Assembly: GCF_903946935.1 (NCBI RefSeq)
Contig: NZ_CAJAXH010000214.1
Location: 1 to 64,000, forward strand
From: an uncultured Thiodictyon sp.
GTDB lineage: Bacteria; Pseudomonadota; Gammaproteobacteria; Chromatiales; Chromatiaceae
Direction: 5' to 3'
DNA: 64,000 nucleotides
Shown here: one piece after another, positions 1 to 9,618 of the stretch
Layout of the letters: each line of letters starts with the position of its first letter
Position numbering within the stretch: position 1 is the stretch's first letter
Program-made: the position numbers and the translations under genes
Notes under the pieces: generated by a model
Told to the model about the DNA's origin: nothing
The model's input: only the letters and a program-made list of their open reading frames with translations
Database searches by the model: none

Positions 1-1566
1 TGTCAACCCAAAGTAGAAATGTCCCCTATTCCGCAAAGTAGAGATGTCCCCTGTTGGCGGGGGCAGGGGGCGAGATGCAGGGGAGGGGCCGCCGGGTCGG
101 CGGGCCAGACGTAGGGAGCCCGTAGGGCGACCGGAGTCTGGCCCGCCGACCCGGCGGGGCGCCACGGACCGGGGTCAGACCGCGGGGGCGGCAGGGCTTG
201 GCGCAGCGGTCGCGGCGCCGGGGATAGCTGGGCGGCGCCACGGATGGTCGGCGCCGGGCTTGGACGTGCGGTGCTGCGTGGCGAGCGCCGCGTCGACGCG
301 CGCGTTGAGCGTCTTGTCGTCGGCCGGTGGCGGCGGGTGCTCGCCCTTGCGATAGGTCGTGTAAGGCAGCTCCCGCCCGTCGTAGAGCAAGGTGACCTCG
401 CCACTCGGCAGCGCGCAGACCGTCACCTTGGCCCCGCGCAGGCGATACCCTGGTCCGTCGTGGCGAACCTGGTAGAGGACGTTGCGAAATTGCAGGGCGA
501 GGTTCTTGGACAGGACCCGCTCGTGGTGCTCGCACAGGAGCAGGTCGAGCTCACGGGGACGGTGCGCAAGTGTTCGGTGCGCGTCCTCCTCAATGCTCGG
601 GGCCACGGCGAAGCGGCGGTTGTAGTCGGCGATAAACTCGGGCAGGAAGGCGTTGGCAGCCACCATCGCGTCGATGCCGCGCAGGCGCAACTCCTTGACC
701 AGCCGGTCCTGCAAGGTCTGATTGGCGCGCTCCACGCGCCCCTTGGCCTGCGGGCTGTGCGCCTGGATCGCCTCAATCTCCAACCCCGCCAGCGCGCGCC
801 CGAACTGGGTCAGCGTGTGGCCGTTGGCGGCCTCCTCGCGCGTCAGCCGGAAGATGCTGTGGCGGTCGGAGTACAGCGCCACCGGCCGCCCATGACGCTC
901 CAGATGCGCGCGCAGCAGTTGCATGTACGCCGCCGTGGTCTCGGCGGGGAAGAACCCCAATTGCACCAGCCGCCCGGTGGCGTCGTCGATGAAGACCAGG
1001 AGCGTGCAGCGCCCGCTGCGACCCTCGAACCAGTCGTGCGGCGAGCCGTCGATCTGGATCGGCTCGCCGAAGCGACCCCGCCGCGCGCGCAGTTGGTACG
1101 CACGTGCCGCCTTGCGCCGCTTGGGTTTCCACAGCGCCAGCTCGATTTGCAGCCCGCGTACCGTCTCCACCGAGACCGCCATCCCATGCACCTCGCGCAG
1201 CTTCTCGCACGCCAGCGTGGGACCGAAGTCCGCATAGCGCTCCACCAACAGGGCGCGAATGGCTTCGCGCACCGGCTCCTTCAGCCGCCGGTTCGACGGC
1301 CGACCCACCCGCTGGCTCACCAGTGCGCCCGCCCCGTCCCGCCGGTACGCCGCCACCAGCCGCTTCACCTGCCGCGTCGTCACCCCCAACTGCTCGGCCG
1401 CCTGCCCCTGCTTCAGCCGCCCCTCCGCCACCGCCTCGACCGCCCGCAGACGGTGCAGCGCCTTCTTCGTCATCTCGATGGTCTCCTCCGGCATCACGCC
1501 CCCTCGGTTGCCCAAAGGGGACATCTCTACATTGCACGGAGGGGACATTACTACTTTGGGTTAACA
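1..1566 (-). mobile_element. Complete insertion sequence, ISNCY/IS481-like
   Basis: The element is bounded by 27-bp imperfect terminal inverted repeats at 1-27 and 1540-1566 (25 of 27 match; both begin TGT[C/T]AACCCAAAGTAG). A second, subterminal copy of the AAGTAGA-ATGTCCCCT motif lies at 34-52 and, inverted, at 1516-1530, so each end carries two probable transposase binding sites. One transposase gene fills the interior. The left end coincides with the window edge, so a target-site duplication cannot be checked. The element stops 81 bp before the start of the putative lasso precursor gene. The family assignment comes from the single long DDE transposase with an N-terminal helix-turn-helix. 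Confidence 0.85.
175..1494 (-). CDS. DDE transposase of the insertion sequence (439 aa)
   Basis: The protein carries out cut and paste or copying of the flanking inverted repeats. An N-terminal helix-turn-helix (about residues 10-60: GRLKQGQAAEQLGVTTRQVK) precedes an integrase-type catalytic core with the acidic residues in IQIDGSPHDWF, FIDDATGRL and GRVERANQT, so the DDE triad appears intact. The C-terminus is rich in Pro and Ala. I chose the ATG at 1494 because GAGGGG precedes it by a few bases; an upstream in-frame start at 1548 would run through the subterminal repeat. It resembles ISNCY-family transposases and is more distantly like IS481. It is probably functional, since no stop or frameshift is seen. 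Confidence 0.85.
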   Translation of the reverse strand: MPEETIEMTKKALHRLRAVEAVAEGRLKQGQAAEQLGVTTRQVKRLVAAYRRDGAGALVSQRVGRPSNRRLKEPVREAIRALLVERYADFGPTLACEKLREVHGMAVSVETVRGLQIELALWKPKRRKAARAYQLRARRGRFGEPIQIDGSPHDWFEGRSGRCTLLVFIDDATGRLVQLGFFPAETTAAYMQLLRAHLERHGRPVALYSDRHSIFRLTREEAANGHTLTQFGRALAGLEIEAIQAHSPQAKGRVERANQTLQDRLVKELRLRGIDAMVAANAFLPEFIADYNRRFAVAPSIEEDAHRTLAHRPRELDLLLCEHHERVLSKNLALQFRNVLYQVRHDGPGYRLRGAKVTVCALPSGEVTLLYDGRELPYTTYRKGEHPPPPADDKTLNARVDAALATQHRTSKPGADHPWRRPAIPGAATAAPSPAAPAV

Positions 1567-1583
1567 CTGGCGGTGAGTAATGA

Positions 1584-1613
1584 TTGTATCCGTGAGGCGG
1601 TTTATCGTAAACT
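1584..1613 (+). promoter_or_regulatory. Candidate sigma-70 promoter of the precursor gene
   Basis: TTGTAT (1584-1589), an 18-bp spacer and TAAACT (1608-1613) sit just outside the right end of the insertion sequence and would give a 5' leader of about 25 nt. The -35 and -10 boxes are moderate matches. Nothing else on this side of the IS could drive the small gene. Confidence 0.3.
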
Positions 1614-1647
1614 ACTGATGAATTAACCAACGAGCATGAGGCCAGCT

Positions 1648-1836
1648 ATGATCGACTCGCGTGACATTCGTCCCACCGACGGCTTGCGCCAGGACGCACC
1701 CAGCGCTACCACGCAGGGGGCGCGGAAACTCTATCTGGCACCCCATATTCGGCGGATCGAAGTGGGCGGCGGCACCCAGGCCGGAACGGGGTCGTATAAC
1801 GATGCGACCAATTATCCCGATCCGGGAATCTCCTAA
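1648..1836 (+). CDS. Putative lasso peptide precursor (62 aa)
   Basis: The start at 1648 is preferred over the in-frame ATG at 1636 because GAGG (1638-1641) lies 6 nt upstream. The second half reads YLAPHIRRIEVGGGTQ followed by AGTGSYNDATNYPDPGIS. The Y-x-x-P-x-[LI] element is the leader motif that B1/RRE proteins bind in many lasso precursors, and Thr at the penultimate leader position is the conserved protease signal. Cutting after TQ gives an 18-residue core starting Ala-Gly with Asp at position 8, suited to an Ala1-Asp8 macrolactam, and ending in Ser. From memory, paeninodin has the same layout: Y-x-x-P leader, T-x before the core, AG-x-G start, C-terminal Ser that is phosphorylated. The gene converges on the cyclase gene with a 4-bp gap. 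An alternative 7-residue ring (cut after TQA) is possible. The product is inferred, not proven. Confidence 0.72.
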   Translation: MIDSRDIRPTDGLRQDAPSATTQGARKLYLAPHIRRIEVGGGTQAGTGSYNDATNYPDPGIS

Positions 1837-1840
1837 TCAC

Positions 1841-3766
1841 TCAAAATCTCAGCAAAAAAAGACCCACCCCCAGACCACGCAGCAGGATGGTGAGGGCCCG
1901 GCGACTGGTGTCGCGCGTCACCGCCTGCCCCAGGTCTTGATAGGCGGCGTGCATTTTGGGCAGGTCAAGCCACGCGCGCGCCAGCGGGTGAGCGGTGAGC
2001 CGCGCCAGCGCCGCGCCGACTGCCGCGCGCTCTTGGTTCAGCCGATAGCCGACATCGGCCCCCTGCAGGCCCCGCGGACCCGGGTGCAGCACGGCGTCCG
2101 GCAGGTCGCCGCTAAACCCGGCCCGGATCAGACCGCGGCCCCGGCCCTGCGCCCAAAACACCGGGTCCGGCGTCTGCCAGCAGAATTCAATCACCCGGCG
2201 ATCCCGGGTCGGGTCGCGGACCTCGAGTCGATGTGCAGCGCCGTTTTCCATCCACGCGGCCCCCAAGGTGGTCGAACCGCGTCGGCCCAGGCGAAACTGG
2301 GCGAGCAGGGGATGACGGGGATCGAACAGGGTACTGAAGTCGCCGTTACAACGGGCAGCGCGCATGCGCCGCGCGAGCCTCAGGTCGGCGGCGAACGCGG
2401 GATTGATCGCAGAATACTGCCCCCAGGGCACGGCGCCGCGACGGCCGATGCGCTGCACCGCTTGCCTGGCCGGCGCCAACAGCGGACGCACGAGCCGCCG
2501 TTTAATGAGCTGTCCCGCACCCAGCGGGCTGTCACGCAATGCGGCCCGCAGGGCACCCCAGCGGCCGCCCAGCAGCGCGGGCAGCAGGCTGCCGGTACCG
2601 CTCCACGAGACCGTGGCATTGCCACCCTGACCGGTCAGCAACACCCGCACACCGTGTTGCCTGGCCTGGGCCAGGATATCCAGTATCCAGTAGGCATTGG
2701 CGACGCCATGTTGCGGCTGATCGTGGAGCTCAAGCATCCGCTCGATGGCACCCACCAGGTCGGCGCGCGGGGCGGCGATCGGGATGAACTCGATGTTGCC
2801 GATATGCTCGGCGGTCGCGCGCGCCAGCGGGCCTTCATCGCCCAGCCGGGAGGCCCACAGGGCACTGGCCGGGCCGAAGTGGGGCACCGAGGTATAGGCC
2901 ACCAGCCGTTCGCCGCGCGCCGCCAGACGCGGCGCGGCGAGGGCCGCCACCGATCCGGAATCGAGCCCCGCACTGAGCATGAGTGCCACCGGCCCCGCGG
3001 CGGTGCATAGACGATCCTGCACCGCGCGACCATAAACGTCTCGAAAGGCCGATAGATAGTCCCCGCCCGGCGCCGCCGCGAATTCACTCAACCGCTCGGG
3101 ATACCACCAGCGCTCGACCGCCACGCCGCCGGGGCCGGCGCACAAGGCGCAGCCGCCGGGCAGACGGCGGATGTCGGCATAGGCGGTGGAGTCGGCCCGG
3201 GCGGGGTCATGGAAGACGGTCAACAGCCGGGCCAGGTAATCGGCATCGGGCCGCTTGGGGATCGCGGGATGAACCAGCAGCGCCTTGATACTGGTCGCAA
3301 ACACCAGCCGACGGGCATCGTGCCAGAAATACAGGCCGGTATTGCCCGCTGCATCGCGCCCGATCCACAGACGGCGGCGGCGCCGATCCCAGATGGCACA
3401 GACCCAGTCGCCATACAGGTGCTGCGCACACGCCTCGCCCCAGCGCCGCCAGGCCAGGGCCACCAGCCGACTATCCGGGAGTGTCGGCCACGCGGCCCGC
3501 GCCACACCCAGCTCGCGGGCCAGATTGTCGCGGTCGTCCAGCCGGATATGGCCCGCCAACACCAGGTCCGACTCGATCAGCGGCTGGCAATCCTGGGTGT
3601 CCTGCGGCCTGATGTGCAGCAGGCGCGCACCCAGGGCCAGGGGGCCCTCCTGCCAGCGCCCGCCGCCATCCGGCCCCCAGTCCGCCATGGCCCGCTCCAT
3701 GGCCGCCAGCGTTGCTGGCGCGGGACTCGCCGGCGCCAGCGAGAGTTCACCGTAGAGGCCAGCCAT
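1841..3766 (-). CDS. Asparagine-synthetase-like lasso macrolactam cyclase (641 aa)
   Basis: This is an AsnB/McjC-type protein, expected to adenylate the Asp side chain of the core peptide with ATP and let the N-terminal amine close the ring. The N-terminal glutaminase-like domain (about 1-210) starts MAGLYG and so lacks the catalytic Cys2 of true asparagine synthetases, as lasso cyclases do. The synthetase domain has the pyrophosphate loop SAGLDS at 265-270 and runs to the end. It is the last gene of a minus-strand operon behind the sulfotransferase (107-bp gap). Length is typical for lasso C proteins. A role as an ordinary amidotransferase is less likely given the RRE protein, kinase and facing precursor. 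Confidence 0.82.
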   Translation of the reverse strand: MAGLYGELSLAPASPAPATLAAMERAMADWGPDGGGRWQEGPLALGARLLHIRPQDTQDCQPLIESDLVLAGHIRLDDRDNLARELGVARAAWPTLPDSRLVALAWRRWGEACAQHLYGDWVCAIWDRRRRRLWIGRDAAGNTGLYFWHDARRLVFATSIKALLVHPAIPKRPDADYLARLLTVFHDPARADSTAYADIRRLPGGCALCAGPGGVAVERWWYPERLSEFAAAPGGDYLSAFRDVYGRAVQDRLCTAAGPVALMLSAGLDSGSVAALAAPRLAARGERLVAYTSVPHFGPASALWASRLGDEGPLARATAEHIGNIEFIPIAAPRADLVGAIERMLELHDQPQHGVANAYWILDILAQARQHGVRVLLTGQGGNATVSWSGTGSLLPALLGGRWGALRAALRDSPLGAGQLIKRRLVRPLLAPARQAVQRIGRRGAVPWGQYSAINPAFAADLRLARRMRAARCNGDFSTLFDPRHPLLAQFRLGRRGSTTLGAAWMENGAAHRLEVRDPTRDRRVIEFCWQTPDPVFWAQGRGRGLIRAGFSGDLPDAVLHPGPRGLQGADVGYRLNQERAAVGAALARLTAHPLARAWLDLPKMHAAYQDLGQAVTRDTSRRALTILLRGLGVGLFLLRF

Positions 3767-3873
3767 GGGCGATGCTCCAGGATCGATTGGAATGAAACAG
3801 GTTCGCGTAGAGATCGCGCCGCGACCCGGTGGGCGCGGCTTGCCGGCATCGGCGGGGCGCCGGACGCGCGGCG

Positions 3874-4719
3874 TCAGGCATCGAGATAGCCGAACCGCCG
3901 CATGACCTCGGCATGATCGTCGATGATGCGTTCGACCTGCCCAGCGGTCAATTGTGTGCGCCAGTCGCCACTGCGGCCCCGACGGAAGAAGCGTTCAGTG
4001 TGCTGGGGGCGTTCGTGAAAGCCCCGCTGCGCCTCCTGCCGGGCCAGTTCACCGAAGGCGCTGAAGCGGATGGCCTTGTCGATGCGTGCAGCGTCCTGCG
4101 GCAGGCCGAGAAAGGCCGCGGCAGCGGTAAAGGTGGGCCGCGGGGCGCCCAGCATGTCCTCGAAGCGGATAATCTTCACCCGCAACCCCGGCGCCTCCAC
4201 CCAACTGCGCACATGCTCCGACCAAGTGCCCAGGCACTGTTGGACCTGGGACGGCAGCGCGCGGCGCGACTTGGCCAGGGCCATGCGCGGATTCCCCATC
4301 CGGGCGATCGCCTCCTCCACGGTGCAGTGCCAGTGATTGGCGGCCGAGGGGGCGACATCCAGCGGATTGCGGATGAGATAGAGCGCGCCCAGCGTGGCCT
4401 CCCGGCTGACGAGCGGTTCGCCGTCGGCGGTCAGGGTATAGGCATCATGGATCTTGTGATAGCCGATTGCCGCGCCCTCGTCTTGCAAGGACCAGCGGTA
4501 GACCGCCGGGCGCAGGCGCTCCACCTCCTCGGGCGTCAGTTCGGCGGTATCGAAGCCGAGCACCTGGTCCAGCCAGCCCCGGGCGCTGGCGATGTTGCCG
4601 GTGCGCAGTTCATTGATATCGACCGGGGCCTCGCCATCCTCTTGCAGATTGCGCAGGAAGGCACGCAACCAAGTATTGCCCGACTTGGGATAGGAGGCGA
4701 GCCAATAGATCCCGACCAT
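3874..4719 (-). CDS. PAPS-dependent sulfotransferase (281 aa)
   Basis: It is predicted to move a sulfuryl group from PAPS to a hydroxyl acceptor. The start MVGIYWLASYPKSGNTWLR holds the 5'-phosphosulfate loop (SYPKSGNTW, residues 9-17), and LYLIRNPLDVAPSAANHW is the 3'-phosphate binding strand and helix. The start at 4719 is fixed by this motif and lies 1 bp after the stop of the kinase gene, so the two are translationally coupled. Sulfotransferases are known companions of kinase-containing lasso clusters, and the acceptor may be a Tyr or Ser/Thr of the core peptide, but the substrate cannot be read from sequence. Confidence 0.85.
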   Translation of the reverse strand: MVGIYWLASYPKSGNTWLRAFLRNLQEDGEAPVDINELRTGNIASARGWLDQVLGFDTAELTPEEVERLRPAVYRWSLQDEGAAIGYHKIHDAYTLTADGEPLVSREATLGALYLIRNPLDVAPSAANHWHCTVEEAIARMGNPRMALAKSRRALPSQVQQCLGTWSEHVRSWVEAPGLRVKIIRFEDMLGAPRPTFTAAAAFLGLPQDAARIDKAIRFSAFGELARQEAQRGFHERPQHTERFFRRGRSGDWRTQLTAGQVERIIDDHAEVMRRFGYLDA

Positions 4720-4720
4720 T

Positions 4721-5623
4721 TCAGGGATGCGCGGCGAGGTCGGCGAGGATGCGATCCACCAGTGCGTCCAGTTCGAAACCGCGCTCCGGGCGGGTGATGC
4801 GGGTGAGGTGGATACGCCCGGCGAGCTTGCCACAGAGTTGCAGATGTTCGCGCTTGAGGGCCATCCCTTCCAGAAAACGGACGCGATAGGTGTTGTTGCG
4901 CAGCGGCGTAAAGCGCTCCAGACCGTGGATGGGCTCACAGCGGGTGTCCGGCAGCGGGTGACTGCCCAGGATGTAGACCCAGCGGATCGGCAGGGGCACC
5001 CCGATCACGGGGCTCGCCAGTGGATAGTTGAACTTCGCCAGCGCTGGGCGGATGCGGCGCAACTGCGCGGTGTCGATGTGCAGCCGCTGCGCAGTGTCCT
5101 GCCACAGCTTGATGCGCGGGAAGCCCGGCAGGGCGCGACAGTCGGCATCCACTGCAATGACGTCATCGCCCAGGATCTCATAACCGCGCCGCAGGAAGCC
5201 CGCCGCCAGGGTGGACTTACCCGCACCCGAAGCCCCGACGCAGACCATACATTGCTCGCCAATGCGAATGGCGTTGCCGTGCAGCACCAGCAGACCGCGT
5301 TGGAAGAGCAGCGCCCCGAGTGCCGAGCCGAGCAGAAAGACCCGGATGCTGTCCTCGTCCACGCCGGGTTCGGGGGCGATCGTAATCAGGTTCCCATCGC
5401 TCACCAGAAACCGCGCGATCCGCGGCACCCGCAGCCAGAGCGCACGGGGGCTAACCCACAGGAAGGGGCCGCGTTGCCGGCCGTCAGTCAAACCTTCAGT
5501 GGGAACCTGACCGAGGCGAATCTGCACATCGGGTTCGCTTCGCGCGGCTGAGGCAGCGGCGGCCAACAGTTCCGGCAGGGCGAGATCGCTGACGAAGGTC
5601 AGTCCGTAGCAGGTGTAGATCAT
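4721..5623 (-). CDS. HPr-serine-kinase-like lasso peptide kinase (300 aa)
   Basis: The protein has a P-loop GASGAGKS (130-137) and the downstream acid pair in ILGDDVIAVD, matching the HPr kinase C-terminal fold, but it lacks the usual HPr kinase partner genes. In known lasso clusters this family (PadeK type) phosphorylates the C-terminal Ser of the precursor. The precursor here ends in Ser, which makes that role likely. It sits second in the operon, 58 bp after the PqqD-like gene, and its stop nearly touches the sulfotransferase start. The N-terminal 110 residues are divergent. It could also act on a different peptide or small molecule. Confidence 0.8.
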   Translation of the reverse strand: MIYTCYGLTFVSDLALPELLAAAASAARSEPDVQIRLGQVPTEGLTDGRQRGPFLWVSPRALWLRVPRIARFLVSDGNLITIAPEPGVDEDSIRVFLLGSALGALLFQRGLLVLHGNAIRIGEQCMVCVGASGAGKSTLAAGFLRRGYEILGDDVIAVDADCRALPGFPRIKLWQDTAQRLHIDTAQLRRIRPALAKFNYPLASPVIGVPLPIRWVYILGSHPLPDTRCEPIHGLERFTPLRNNTYRVRFLEGMALKREHLQLCGKLAGRIHLTRITRPERGFELDALVDRILADLAAHP

Positions 5624-5681
5624 CGCTGGACGGACGGCCGTAACGCCCGCCTGACGACCAAAAGGCGTGAAGGGCGCGCTG

Positions 5682-5978
5682 TCATGCGAGCTGCACCAGC
5701 CCCAGGCCGATCAATTCTTGGGTAAAGTGCAGCAGGTCGCTGCGGCAGGTGGGTTCGTCAACCGCGAATTCACCACAAATGGTCACGGCGAGCTCATCCA
5801 CCGTCACCGGCCGCTCCAGCAATTCCCAGATACGCGGCCCGACGCCGCTGATACCGTAATATTCGCCTTCCTCAATGCTCATCATGACCAGATCGCCATC
5901 CATGTCGGCGGCGACCAGGTCCGAGTTGCGAATGATCGGGGTGGTCGGATCAATGGTCGTCATGGGTCCACAGCTCAT
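5682..5978 (-). CDS. PqqD-family RRE (lasso B1-like) protein (98 aa)
   Basis: This is a small winged-helix PqqD-like protein, which in RiPP pathways binds the leader peptide and delivers it to the protease and cyclase. The pattern LVAADMDGDLVMMSIEEGEYYGI, then GPRIWELLE and VDELA, is typical of PqqD/B1 proteins. It is the first gene of the minus-strand operon. The start may instead be the ATG at 5963 (MTTIDPTTP), because neither start has a strong ribosome site. The usual fused or adjacent B2 cysteine protease is absent on either side within the window. Confidence 0.82.
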   Translation of the reverse strand: MSCGPMTTIDPTTPIIRNSDLVAADMDGDLVMMSIEEGEYYGISGVGPRIWELLERPVTVDELAVTICGEFAVDEPTCRSDLLHFTQELIGLGLVQLA

Positions 5979-6199
5979 GGTTGGAGGTCATTACGGCGAG
6001 GCGGCGGATGCGGCGAACGCGGGTTCGATGCAACAGCACCAAGGCAACACAAGACAACCTCTTAGGGGAGCCTTGAACATGACGCCGGGCACCCCACGGG
6101 GCCCGTCGGTGCCGCAATGTGCAATCAAGGTCCCAACATCTCGACTGGATTCCATGATAACCCAGATGCGCGCGCGCGTGCAGCACGGGCGGCCCCGGC
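5979..6199. other. Intergenic region upstream of the lasso operon
   Basis: The stretch lies between the RRE gene and the stop of the SUMF1-like gene, both on the minus strand. It should hold the promoter of the lasso operon, but I see no convincing -35/-10 pair. None of its frames shows the Cys-His-Asp motifs of a B2 protease. Confidence 0.4.
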
Positions 6200-7732
6200 T
6201 CAGGGTGGCGCGGGGTCCATCCAGGGTTCCGCGGGAATGTGCGCGGGGCTCTGGAGATAGCGGCCGCCGGGTGGCGGCGGTGTACTGTGCGCGGGGGACT
6301 TTGCCCGTTGCCGCTGCCGGGCGCTACGCTCCTCGAGCACGCGGCGGGTCTCGGCGCTCAATTGCCCCGTCATCGCGAGCCCGGATTCGCGTTGGAACTC
6401 GCGCAATACTACCGCAAAGGCGCGGTCGAAGCGGTCCGATGCCGGATCGCAAGGGTATCCCAAGTCACTGAGTTGCTGCCGCACCCGACGCCGCTCGTCG
6501 CTCGTGAGCGCGGGTGCCGACTGGGCGCGCGCGGGAGGCGGCTCCAGGTGCAGGCGCACGGTGACCGGCGCGGCGTCCGGCAGGTCGACCGTCGCCGCGG
6601 CGGGCGTGTAGCCGGGCGTGAGCGGAGACGCCTCGATGCGATGGCTACCGTGTCGCAGACCGGTCAATTCCAGGGGCGTCCCCACCCCAAAGGAGCCCTG
6701 TAGCTCGCCATCGAGCAGCACCATCGCACGGGCATCCAGCTCGATGCGCAGGCGTGCGTCCGCCACGCTGGCCGCCGCGCTGCCCCCCGAGGTGACGACC
6801 GGGGCGGCCAGCACCACCCGCAAGCCGGTGTCGGCGCTCGTCACGTCCCCGGCCGTATCATAGGGCTGGACCTCGACCCGGGCATCCGCGCGCAGTTCGT
6901 CATCGGCGCTGTGGATGCCCCCGCCCATCAACACATCGCCCCCGACCTGACCGGGGAACTGCGTTGAGCGATAGGGGTCGTTCATGACCTCCCAGGCGTT
7001 TCCATAGAGGTCATGCAGACCCAGCGGATTGGGCAGGCGCCGGCCGATGGGGGCAATCTCGCCGTCGGCATTGCGGTTGTACCAGGCGTGGCGCGCCAGT
7101 CCCTCCGGCATGGGATAACGGCGCGCCGCAAAGGTGTCGTCTGTCACCTGCGCCCCACCCCGGGCGGCATATTCCCATTCCGTACTCAGGGGCAGCCGGA
7201 CGAAGGCCGGCTGGCCGTCGACCCGCGGCAGGCAGGGTGTTGGCCCAATCGTGCAGGGCGGAATCCGCGCGGCATTGGCGTGCAACCAGCGCGAGAGTTG
7301 CGCCGCAAAATTCACCGCGTCGATGCGGCTGACGCCGACCTGGGCGGTCGCCAGCATCGCCGCTTGGGCGTTCCCGGGGGGCGGCAGCGCCGGACAGGAC
7401 CGCCCGGCAGCCTGCGCGATGACCGCCCGATACTGGAGGACCGTGACCTCGTATTTGCCGATCAGCAGATAGCGTTGCCCGGCCTCGCCGGGGCCGGTCA
7501 CGGGGCCGGTAAAGGGCCCGACCAGCGTGGTGCGGGGGCTGCCCGCCGGGGTCGCGACCGGCCGGAAGGCCAAGGCACCGCCGCAGGGCAGCGGCAGGAT
7601 CACGTCGTCGGGCAGTGGGCGGGGGTTGTAAGACCCCGGCGGCCAGGGCGACGGAGCGGCCACCGCACCCACCGCGGCGAGCACAAGTGCGGCCCCGAGA
7701 ACGGGGCCGCACCTGGTCGCCGGACGCGACAT
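6200..7732 (-). CDS. Secreted SUMF1/FGE-like protein with PEGA and peptidoglycan-binding domains (510 aa)
   Basis: The start at 7732 gives a signal peptide (MSRPATRCGPVLGAALVLAA, cut near AVAAPS). A formylglycine-generating-enzyme fold follows (YLLIGKYEVTVLQYR, LPLSTEWEYAARGG, NPLGLHDLYGNAWEV). The final domain motif MGGGIHSADDELRADARV has no catalytic cysteines, so it is not a sulfatase activator. A PEGA-like stretch (LRIELDARAMVLLDGELQG...TPGYTPAAATVDL) and a PG_binding_1 repeat (VRQQLSDLGYPCDPASDRF...LREFQRESGL) come next, then a Pro-rich tail. It probably acts in the periplasm or at the cell wall. It is divergent from the ABC transporter gene. Function is unknown; a second SUMF1-like protein lies at 57422. 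Confidence 0.75.
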   Translation of the reverse strand: MSRPATRCGPVLGAALVLAAVGAVAAPSPWPPGSYNPRPLPDDVILPLPCGGALAFRPVATPAGSPRTTLVGPFTGPVTGPGEAGQRYLLIGKYEVTVLQYRAVIAQAAGRSCPALPPPGNAQAAMLATAQVGVSRIDAVNFAAQLSRWLHANAARIPPCTIGPTPCLPRVDGQPAFVRLPLSTEWEYAARGGAQVTDDTFAARRYPMPEGLARHAWYNRNADGEIAPIGRRLPNPLGLHDLYGNAWEVMNDPYRSTQFPGQVGGDVLMGGGIHSADDELRADARVEVQPYDTAGDVTSADTGLRVVLAAPVVTSGGSAAASVADARLRIELDARAMVLLDGELQGSFGVGTPLELTGLRHGSHRIEASPLTPGYTPAAATVDLPDAAPVTVRLHLEPPPARAQSAPALTSDERRRVRQQLSDLGYPCDPASDRFDRAFAVVLREFQRESGLAMTGQLSAETRRVLEERSARQRQRAKSPAHSTPPPPGGRYLQSPAHIPAEPWMDPAPP

Positions 7733-7830
7733 GCTGGGCGTGTCGGTGAACACTGTCGTTGAACACGGTCCTTGAACCTGAGAGATCAGGCACTTATTTT
7801 AGAACTTATTCTGACGCCCAGTGGAACCCC

Positions 7831-9618
7831 ATGCGCCCTGCCCCGCCCCTGCCCCAACGCCCCACCACCCGCAACCTGGGCCCGCTGCTGCGGCTCTTGA
7901 GCTTCGTCCGACCCTATCGGGGGCGCGTCCTGTTGGCCGCCCTCGCCCTGCTGGTGGCCGCCGCCGCGGTACTCGCCTTCGGGCAGGTGATTCGGGAGGT
8001 GGTGGACCATGGACTCAAGACCGGATCGGCGGACGCCCTCAACCGTTCACTCGTGTTCTTTCTCGCCGTAGTGCTGGCGATGGCCGCGGCCATCCTGGTG
8101 CGCTCCTACCTGCTCGCGTGGATCGGCGAGCGGGTCATCGCCGACGTGCGCACGGCGGTCTTTACCCGGGTCTTGAGCCTGGACGTGGGCTTCTTCGAGA
8201 CCACCCGCACCGGCGAGGTCATCTCGCGTCTGACCTCCGACACCACACTGTTACAAACGGTGGTTGGCTCCACCCTGGCGATGGCGCTGCGCACCTCGCT
8301 CCTGGTGCTCGGCGGTCTGATCATGCTGGCCCTGACCAGTCCGCATCTCACCGGCCTGGTGCTGCTCGGGGTGCCGGTGGTGGTCCTGCCGCTGTGGCTG
8401 ATCGGTTACCGCCTGCGGCGCCTGGCGCGCGCCAGTCAGGACCGCATCGCCGATGTCGGTGCCTATGTGGATGAGTCGATGCATGCCATCCGCACCGTGC
8501 AGTCCTTCTGCCACGAGGCGATCGACCGGGCGCGCTACGGTGAACGGGTGGAGTCGGCCTTCGAGACCGCCCGGCGGCGTGCCGGCCTGAGCGCCGCCCT
8601 GAGCGCCATCGCCACCGCGCTCACCTTCGGTGCCATCGGCGCGGTGCTGTGGGTCGGCGGCCGGGAGGTGCTGGCGGGACGCCTGAGCGGCGGCGAACTC
8701 TCCGCCTTCCTCTTCTATGCCGTGCTGGTGGCCAGCTCAGTGGGCAGCCTGAGCGAGTTGGTGGGTGAACTGTTGCGCGGCGCCGGGGCGAGCGAGCGGT
8801 TGATGGAACTGCTCGCCACCCAGTCGCAGATCCGTCCGCCCGCCGAGCCGCGGCCCCTGCCGAGCCCGGTGCGGGGACAAATCGACTTTGTGGACCTGGG
8901 GTTCGCCTATCCGGCCCATCCGGACCTGCCGGTGCTCCGGGACCTGCGGGTAACCATCGAACCTGGGGCCAAGGTCGCGCTGGTCGGTCCCTCGGGTGCC
9001 GGCAAGACCACCCTGTTTCAACTCCTGCTGCGTTTCTATGACCCGCAACAGGGCGCCATCCAGTTCGATGGGGTCGATCTGCGCGAGCTCGACCCGCAGC
9101 GCCTGCGCGGGCAGATCGCCGTCGTCCCCCAGGACCCGACGATCTTCGGCGCGGATGCCTGGGAGAACATCCGCTATGGCCTCACCGGCGTCCCGGATGC
9201 CGCGGTACGCCGCGCCGCCGACGCGGCACATGCAAGCGAGTTCCTGGACCGACTGCCGAACGGCTTCGACACCTTCCTGGGCGAGCGCGGGGTGCGGCTC
9301 TCAGGCGGCCAGCGCCAGCGCATCGCCATCGCGCGGGCGATCCTGCGCGACCCGGCCCTGCTGTTGCTGGATGAGGCGACCAGCGCGCTCGACGCCGAGA
9401 GCGAGCGGTTAGTCCAACTCGCACTGGAGGAGTTGATGAAAGGGCGCACCAGCATCGTCATCGCCCACCGCCTGGCGACCGTGCGCAAGGTCGACCGCAT
9501 CCTGGTTATGGAGCACGGACGCCTGGTGGCCGACGGCACCCACGAGGCGCTGATGGGCCAGGGGGGGCTCTATGCGCGGCTCGCCTCGCTCCAGTTTCGC
9601 GACCAGGTAGGGGAATGA
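7831..9618 (+). CDS. ABC exporter, fused permease and ATPase (595 aa)
   Basis: This is an MsbA-related half-transporter of the type common in proteobacterial chromosomes. Six membrane helices span about residues 30-300. The nucleotide-binding domain has Walker A GPSGAGKTT, Q-loop VVPQDPTIFG, signature RLSGGQRQRIAIARAIL, Walker B LLLLDEATSALD and the H-loop VIAHRL, so it should be active as a dimer. I prefer the ATG at 7831 over upstream in-frame starts because the conserved part begins here. It lies beyond the SUMF1-like gene from the lasso operon and on the other strand. It could export the peptide, but the family is widespread without lasso genes. Confidence 0.85.
   Translation: MRPAPPLPQRPTTRNLGPLLRLLSFVRPYRGRVLLAALALLVAAAAVLAFGQVIREVVDHGLKTGSADALNRSLVFFLAVVLAMAAAILVRSYLLAWIGERVIADVRTAVFTRVLSLDVGFFETTRTGEVISRLTSDTTLLQTVVGSTLAMALRTSLLVLGGLIMLALTSPHLTGLVLLGVPVVVLPLWLIGYRLRRLARASQDRIADVGAYVDESMHAIRTVQSFCHEAIDRARYGERVESAFETARRRAGLSAALSAIATALTFGAIGAVLWVGGREVLAGRLSGGELSAFLFYAVLVASSVGSLSELVGELLRGAGASERLMELLATQSQIRPPAEPRPLPSPVRGQIDFVDLGFAYPAHPDLPVLRDLRVTIEPGAKVALVGPSGAGKTTLFQLLLRFYDPQQGAIQFDGVDLRELDPQRLRGQIAVVPQDPTIFGADAWENIRYGLTGVPDAAVRRAADAAHASEFLDRLPNGFDTFLGERGVRLSGGQRQRIAIARAILRDPALLLLDEATSALDAESERLVQLALEELMKGRTSIVIAHRLATVRKVDRILVMEHGRLVADGTHEALMGQGGLYARLASLQFRDQVGE

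Follow-up and report, generated by a model that had tools for sequence, protein, structure and literature searches.

Positions 1648-5978 of the window, a 64,000-nucleotide stretch of contig NZ_CAJAXH010000214.1 from an uncultured Thiodictyon sp., hold a real class II-type lasso peptide cluster of a known kind that has been somewhat shredded by insertion sequences (ISs). A precursor gene (A) on the plus strand faces a minus-strand run encoding a discrete RiPP recognition element (RRE; B1), an HprK-like kinase (K), a sulfotransferase (S) and a cyclase (C). We give a probability of about 0.5 to the reading that this cluster still works, broken by ISs, and that its leader would be cut by a protease (B2) encoded on another contig, C58. 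The product would be a lasso peptide, with phosphorylation probable and sulfation possible.

The pathway that we infer from the gene families, the conserved gene order and the low ratios of nonsynonymous to synonymous substitution (dN/dS) would begin with binding of the YxxP leader of A by B1. K would phosphorylate the C-terminal Ser18 of the precursor, and S would sulfate either the peptide or the group installed by K. B2 would cut after TQ, any B2 cutting falling to the single unlinked gene on C58, and C would close a ring between A1 and D8. The calculated monoisotopic mass of the closed core is 1780.754, rising to 1860.720 with HPO3, to 1860.711 with SO3 and to 1940.677 with both, so that a phosphate and a sulfate would be only 0.0095 Da apart.

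The set is divergent, since C and B1 both fall below the lasso cut-offs of NCBIfam, and the assignment leans on the whole set and its synteny and not on a single model. The best NCBIfam match of C is the lasso cyclase model NF033535 (242.6 bits, cut-off 525), and B1 scores 75.3 bits against the lasso model NF033536, just below its cut-off of 80. A preliminary description of this region had placed the five genes as we find them and named an RRE protein, an HPr-type kinase, a sulfotransferase and a cyclase without Cys2, all of which are borne out; position 2 of C is Ala. Its reading of A, with a YxxPxI leader, Thr before the cut site and D8 in the core, likewise holds. A thus carries the features of a lasso precursor, namely a [Y/W]xxPx[LVIAFY] leader, Thr at -2 and Asp or Glu at core positions 7-9, and its core ends in PGIS. 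An alternative ATG at 1636 would give 66 residues; GAGG stands a few bases 5' of the ATG at 1648.

K matches Hpr_kinase_C weakly (26 bits, below the cut-off of 33.3). In an alignment of 17 rows H115, K136 and D153 are invariant and D154 almost so, and we map these residues onto the published His-Lys-Asp-Asp motif of lasso kinases. Its predicted structure is confident (mean predicted local distance difference test score 91.1, predicted template modelling score 0.89) and matches phosphoenolpyruvate carboxykinases best, with HPr kinases lower in the list. In the seven-row alignment of S, PKSGNTW, K89, H91, R117 and S125 are invariant. We take PKSGNTW to be the loop that binds 3'-phosphoadenosine 5'-phosphosulfate (PAPS), the His to be catalytic, and the Arg and Ser to be the pair that holds the 3'-phosphate. 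The nearest solved structures are Teg12 and SULT1; Teg12/Teg14 and SULT1 belong to the same sequence family as S and share its PAPS-site residues, and they act on glycopeptides and small phenols.

Synteny with a genus mate (genome G142) carries much of the assignment. Its contig C333 encodes an MsbA-like transporter, an FGE-like protein, B1, K and S in the same order (91%, 71%, 80%, 81% and 77% identical, respectively), with dN/dS of 0.30 for B1, 0.19 for K and 0.22 for S. C333 ends inside S and a second contig, C520, begins inside C, which suggests that the two are adjacent. C520 carries a convergent 69-residue precursor with YxxP, Thr at -2, the core FRPIGVWSDGGSPSLVMS and, like A, a C-terminal Ser. 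The C-terminal half of C has a dN/dS of 0.34 and is only 58% identical between the two genomes, far more divergent than K or S. Either the cyclase may have changed in step with the core, or C520 may not belong with C333. For the precursors themselves synonymous sites are saturated. The preliminary description had named YxxP, Thr, AG and D8 as the positions at which relatives should agree. YxxP, the Thr and an acidic ring residue are indeed retained in G142, whereas F1 and D9 replace A1-G2 and D8; these differences do not refute the cluster, because lasso cores are expected to vary.

No B2 gene was found at positions 1-25,000 of the window or on its contig. The genome is 99.96% complete by the completeness tool, and one gene in it exceeds the PF13471 cut-off, on the 48.8-kb contig C58; a match on C89 scores 13.1 bits, far below 26. 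The preliminary description had B2 missing, which is right in that none is linked to the cluster but not in that the genome lacks one; the unlinked protease that it offered as one way out corresponds to the gene on C58. This gene is uninterrupted and encodes the motifs SNCFPQA and KAHAWV, which are presumably catalytic. It is 66-75% identical to the B2s of five members of the host's family and 54% identical to a sixth, with dN/dS of 0.15-0.22 against three of them. It lies between queC-like and DAHP-synthase-like genes (named by reading), at a distance of more than 22 kb from both ends of the contig. Profiles for S, K, B1, C, the ABC transporter D and the nucleotidyltransferase match nothing across C58, so that B2 is more than 22 kb from any cluster gene on another contig. 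Loose linkage of B2 is common in the family: it is about 10, 18, 17 and 2.4 kb from the K-S pair in genomes G139, G038, G032 and G119, and on a different contig in G121, G074 and G142. Among the eight family genomes compared, that of the window is the only one in which B2 was found deep inside a contig that has no other cluster gene.

The flank of the cluster suggests how B2 may have come to be separated. An ISNCY-type element spans positions ~1-1566, with terminal inverted repeats at 1-85 and 1483-1566, so that the contig begins within the element. It has strong matches on 13 other contigs of the same genome. When these contigs, some in part, were searched with the open reading frames (ORFs) of at least 150 residues from the G142 flank, C224 alone gave matches, to D (83% identical) and to FG-GAP-type ORFs. 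At one end C224 has the IS end with which the window also begins. At the other, D-B2 side, bases 1 to ~139 recur at 25 other places, in 14 cases from the very first base of a contig, and therefore represent a second, different repeat. C224 is homologous to G142 only as far as C224:157, which leaves about 75 bp to the start of the G142 B2, itself divergent from D and about 9 kb from C. The simplest history would be two insertions bounding the D block, with loss or displacement of B2. A copy of B2 left of the IS, another option of the preliminary description, finds no support: C224 carries D without B2 and ends in the other repeat, less than ~200 bp upstream of the start of D, a B2 beyond it could only sit on another contig, and the genome-wide search returned only C58 above the cut-off. 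The native B2, which stands beside D in G142, was thus not found in this assembly. Large FG-GAP/VCBS-like ORFs lie between precursor and D both in G142 and on C224.

Several observations weigh against a working cluster served by the C58 protease. The C58 B2 is only 42% identical to that of G142 and falls in a 13-row group (support 97/95) that excludes it; the G142 B2 stands beside a single long-branched row (L123) of unsure placement. The window S pairs with the G142 S (97/94), in a tree with 3 of 12 inner branches starred. Since the C58 B2 is of another lineage while K and S are close to those of G142, it did not evolve with this B1 and leader, and it may be a remainder of some other lasso cluster, a possibility suggested by an orphan sulfotransferase on contig C268. 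Of 194 genomes in the family, 57 have PF13471 genes and 10 have relatives of S; B2 being the commoner, a lone B2 is no proof of a link. The IS ends about 81 bp before the ATG of A, and the sole promoter-like site near A on its strand overlaps the start codon (a scan of 1400-6300, itself of little weight, gives three such sites, with 0.6 expected). The dN/dS values average over time that precedes the arrival of the IS, and the joins between contigs at ISs are deduced from synteny.

Several of these points also fit a decaying relic, in which two ISs, that of the window and the different repeat on C224, have severed A-C-S-K-B1 from the side with D and B2. The native B2 would then be lost, no peptide would be made, and the C58 B2 and the C268 sulfotransferase would be scattered leftovers from a second cluster. 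We hold this possible, at rather below even odds: the five genes and the C58 B2 all retain open reading frames, and K, S and B1 have dN/dS of 0.19-0.30. A second complete lasso cluster that might own the C58 B2 was sought at C285, C106 and C268, none of which fits; eight further loci matched by the cyclase model were not assessed individually. The second-best match to that model, on C285, is an N-acetylglutaminylglutamine amidotransferase (958.7 bits). The second PqqD protein, on C106, is the RRE of a different cassette, which may be another RiPP system; it is accompanied there by an HprK-like protein (weak ScmC match) and by ORFs whose sequences resemble a radical SAM protein, a signal peptidase and a nucleotidyltransferase. 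The C268 sulfotransferase (S2) is 65% identical to the window S and lies ~220 bp from the end of the 13.6-kb contig, on which profiles found no other cluster-type gene.

The cluster might also work without any B2, another protease removing the leader or removal being unneeded. The linear polyphosphorylated peptides (LPP; PMC13381572) are such a case, with a signal-peptidase-like (SpI-like) enzyme in place of B2. These systems share a discrete RRE, a YxxP leader and an HprK-like kinase with the present cluster and, unlike it, lack a cyclase. We consider this very improbable here, as the genome does have a B2 with intact motifs and B2 accompanies 44 of 64 related loci (see below).

Combination of a kinase with a sulfotransferase in one lasso cluster, which the preliminary description called little described, has been noted before. 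Genome mining in anaerobes reported both genes in some lasso clusters in 2014, with unclear role (PMC4289311), and Zhu 2016, as cited in PMC8498205, found Firmicutes kinase clusters that begin with a putative sulfotransferase gene. The passage in PMC4289311 speaks of Gram-positive organisms, while the adjacent table lists delta-Proteobacteria; unlike the present analysis, that passage contains no precursor analysis of the pair and no B2 in trans. No sulfated lasso peptide was found by title or opening of the abstract among open-licence PMC papers, and the passages seen of a review of lasso modification (PMC9266682) make no mention of sulfotransferases or sulfation.

Our data add that the pair is widespread, not rare, and tightly coupled as K then S; this tightness is new, as are the precursor features described below. 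Among 80 loci chosen as the best by similarity to S in a contig scan, which are not a random sample and give no share of lasso clusters, 57, from many phyla, have K on the strand of S and no more than 1 kb upstream of it. The gap has a median of 1 nt and is between -30 and +60 nt in 51 of the 57, with one at 812; no K was found at the other 23 loci. A family search with the S alignment (E 1e-20, at most the best 12 candidates per genome) gave the 10 genomes mentioned above, and K adjoins S in eight of them, once with S first (G032, the sole locus seen in that order). A class-wide kinase search added 5 genomes of 369. Rows of the kinase tree bear labels of eleven phyla, some from contigs of metagenome-assembled genomes (MAGs) where no C was seen. 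By an ORF rule K and S are adjacent in 64 loci (56 among the 80, plus family loci), a number that includes overlapping stretches (L030/L058, L029/L065) and two MAGs with the same score (L093/L094). Within the stretches fetched, 56 of these loci have B1, 46 C, 44 B2, 32 all three and 4 none of them.

Precursors beside the pair were sought with a search independent of the last residue in 62 loci that have adjacent K and S under a stricter script rule. It yielded 45 candidates, spread over 33 loci, and 7 when the sequences of the 62 loci were reversed, so that as a set the matches exceed chance. A C-terminal Ser ends 30 of the 45 (25 loci) and none of the 7. Of the 15 others, five share the ring motif G4-S5-x-x-D8; by eye, two more look real (L100:14746-14919 and L114:11303-11455) and eight look like chance matches. 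A search with the ring motif, allowing Ser or Thr at position 5, defines a second class of 10 precursors in 7 loci; G4 and S/T5 are invariant there by construction, except in the five from the unconditioned search. In the kinase tree a single clade (100/100) holds five of the seven ring-class loci, and the remaining two are placed together elsewhere, in company with one tail-Ser locus. On this tree the label of class takes 3 changes (shuffled means, 6.4 and 6.5), a value reached in 1 (tail-Ser) and 0 (ring) of 500 shuffles, to which relatedness alone can contribute; the bootstrap of this tree is unsettled, labels were set by hand, and 32 of the 59 rows carry none. In the window core Ser5 and the C-terminal Ser occur together, and the window K groups with the tail-Ser loci. 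Two MAGs, from Chloroflexi (L100) and Armatimonadetes (L105), have runs of four precursor candidates with one K-S pair, those of L105 being of the ring class.

Lasso kinases act on a C-terminal Ser (passages in PMC8498205 and PMC9266682). Clusters of the paeninodin kind (PadeK, ThcoK, SyanK) share with ours an HprK-like kinase beside A, B1 and C, the final Ser and the His-Lys-Asp-Asp residues, and differ in leader, in the sulfotransferase gene, in the unlinked B2 and in gene order. The label paeninodin-like is therefore apt for kinase and C-terminal Ser and not for the leader, which is YxxP and not the WxxP found nearly always in the Bacillota members, a statement that PMC13381572 makes for Bacillota only. 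In the LPP system the kinase acts on an internal Ser (S3), which is a precedent for the ring-Ser class. Kinase loci without S nearby gave 6 pattern matches in 4 loci (three in L204, one each in L028, L206 and L062); the three that are plausible by eye (two in L204, one in L028) all end in Ser, as does one of the three set aside, numbers too small for a firm control. In addition, the K-S locus L202 has a plausible precursor ending in Ser, and L201 has a chance-looking match that does not. As kinase-only precursors also end in Ser, the tail Ser is likely explained by the kinase alone.

What S acts on is less evident. The 32 tail-Ser cores comprise the 30 above and those of G142 and G032, with the cut site taken at the first fitting Thr; two of them (L136, L147) may belong to a neighbouring cyclase. 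Tyr is absent from 12 of the 32 and from all 10 ring-Ser/Thr cores, and was rejected as a general target. When the first nine and the last seven positions are compared over the 32 cores, no position but the last has a hydroxyl in more than 13 of them. With no shared position of its own for S, either its target varies or it acts on the product of the kinase, and the residue used by the kinase may thus be its site too. At least one further hydroxyl is present in each of the 32 cores; the core of L099, AGGPGITDAGFLS, has one extra hydroxyl only. A more specific proposal, that K phosphorylates the shared Ser (C-terminal, or the ring Ser/Thr5) and S sulfates that phosphate or a sugar built on it, we regard as unlikely. 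A close parallel is pseudomycoidin (PsmK, PsmN), where a C-terminal Ser is likewise primed by a kinase and a second enzyme builds on the phosphate; there it is a nucleotidyltransferase homologue that adds hexose to phospho-Ser (passages in PMC8498205 and PMC9266682), here it would be a sulfotransferase.

Alternatively, S could act on a sugar, lipid or envelope glycan and not on the peptide, for example in a sulfated phospho-sugar layer. NTP_transf_5-like proteins such as that of G139 are present in 36 of the 64 K-S loci, the cores leave no fixed hydroxyl for S, and hexose transfer to phospho-Ser is known from pseudomycoidin, by an enzyme that may be of the same Pfam family as NTP_transf_5. Nonetheless, no NTP_transf_5-like gene lies within 1648-5978, and K and S are coupled also in the 28 loci with none in the stretch fetched; a non-peptide target is accordingly doubtful.

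Table 1 Features of the cluster, its flanks and the related loci.
Feature	Location	Strand	Length	Remarks
ISNCY-type transposase	window 175-1548	-		NCBIfam NF033594, 445.6 bits (cut-off 250)
Precursor A	window 1648-1836	+	62 aa	leader YLAPHI; Thr at -2; core AGTGSYNDATNYPDPGIS; predicted ring A1-D8; C-terminal Ser18
Cyclase C	window 1841-3766	-		Asn synthetase-like, convergent with A; PF00733 Asn_synthase, 94.3 bits, over cut-off
Sulfotransferase S	window 3874-4719	-	281 aa	PAPS-type; ATG 4717-4719; PF00685 Sulfotransfer_1, 80.4 bits, over cut-off
Kinase K	window 4721-5623	-	300 aa	HprK-like lasso kinase; 1 base between K stop and S start
B1	window 5682-5978	-		discrete RRE, PqqD family; PF05402, 57.1 bits, over cut-off
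FGE-like gene	window 6200-7753			beside B1; named from weak NCBIfam matches and reading
MsbA-like transporter	window 7759-9618			near B1; TIGR02204, 820.3 bits (cut-off 780.4)
Leader protease B2	C58:22423-22941		173 aa	NCBIfam lasso_biosyn_B2 NF033537, 79.4 bits (cut-off 33)
G142 syntenic precursor	L033:1249-1458	-		same place as A
FG-GAP/VCBS-like ORFs, G142	L033:1676-6080			named by reading
FG-GAP/VCBS-like ORFs, C224	L080:2274-4483			named by reading
Orphan sulfotransferase S2, C268	L191:12509-13339	-
HprK-like and PqqD-type cassette, C106	L010:4867-9154
S upstream of K, G032	L063:13672-15563
Precursor run, Chloroflexi MAG	L100:13713-14919
Precursor run, Armatimonadetes MAG	L105:5238-6424

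Despite the wide distribution of the pair, the literature passages cited here give no product or reaction for the sulfotransferase of lasso clusters. Our precursor survey indicates that Tyr sulfation cannot be the general answer, and that the Ser of the kinase is the only hydroxyl shared at one position. If K and then S did act on one residue, the result would be a peptide modification of a new kind, shared by many phyla. Should the C58 B2 act in trans, mining that looks only at clustered genes can reject functional lasso systems in error.

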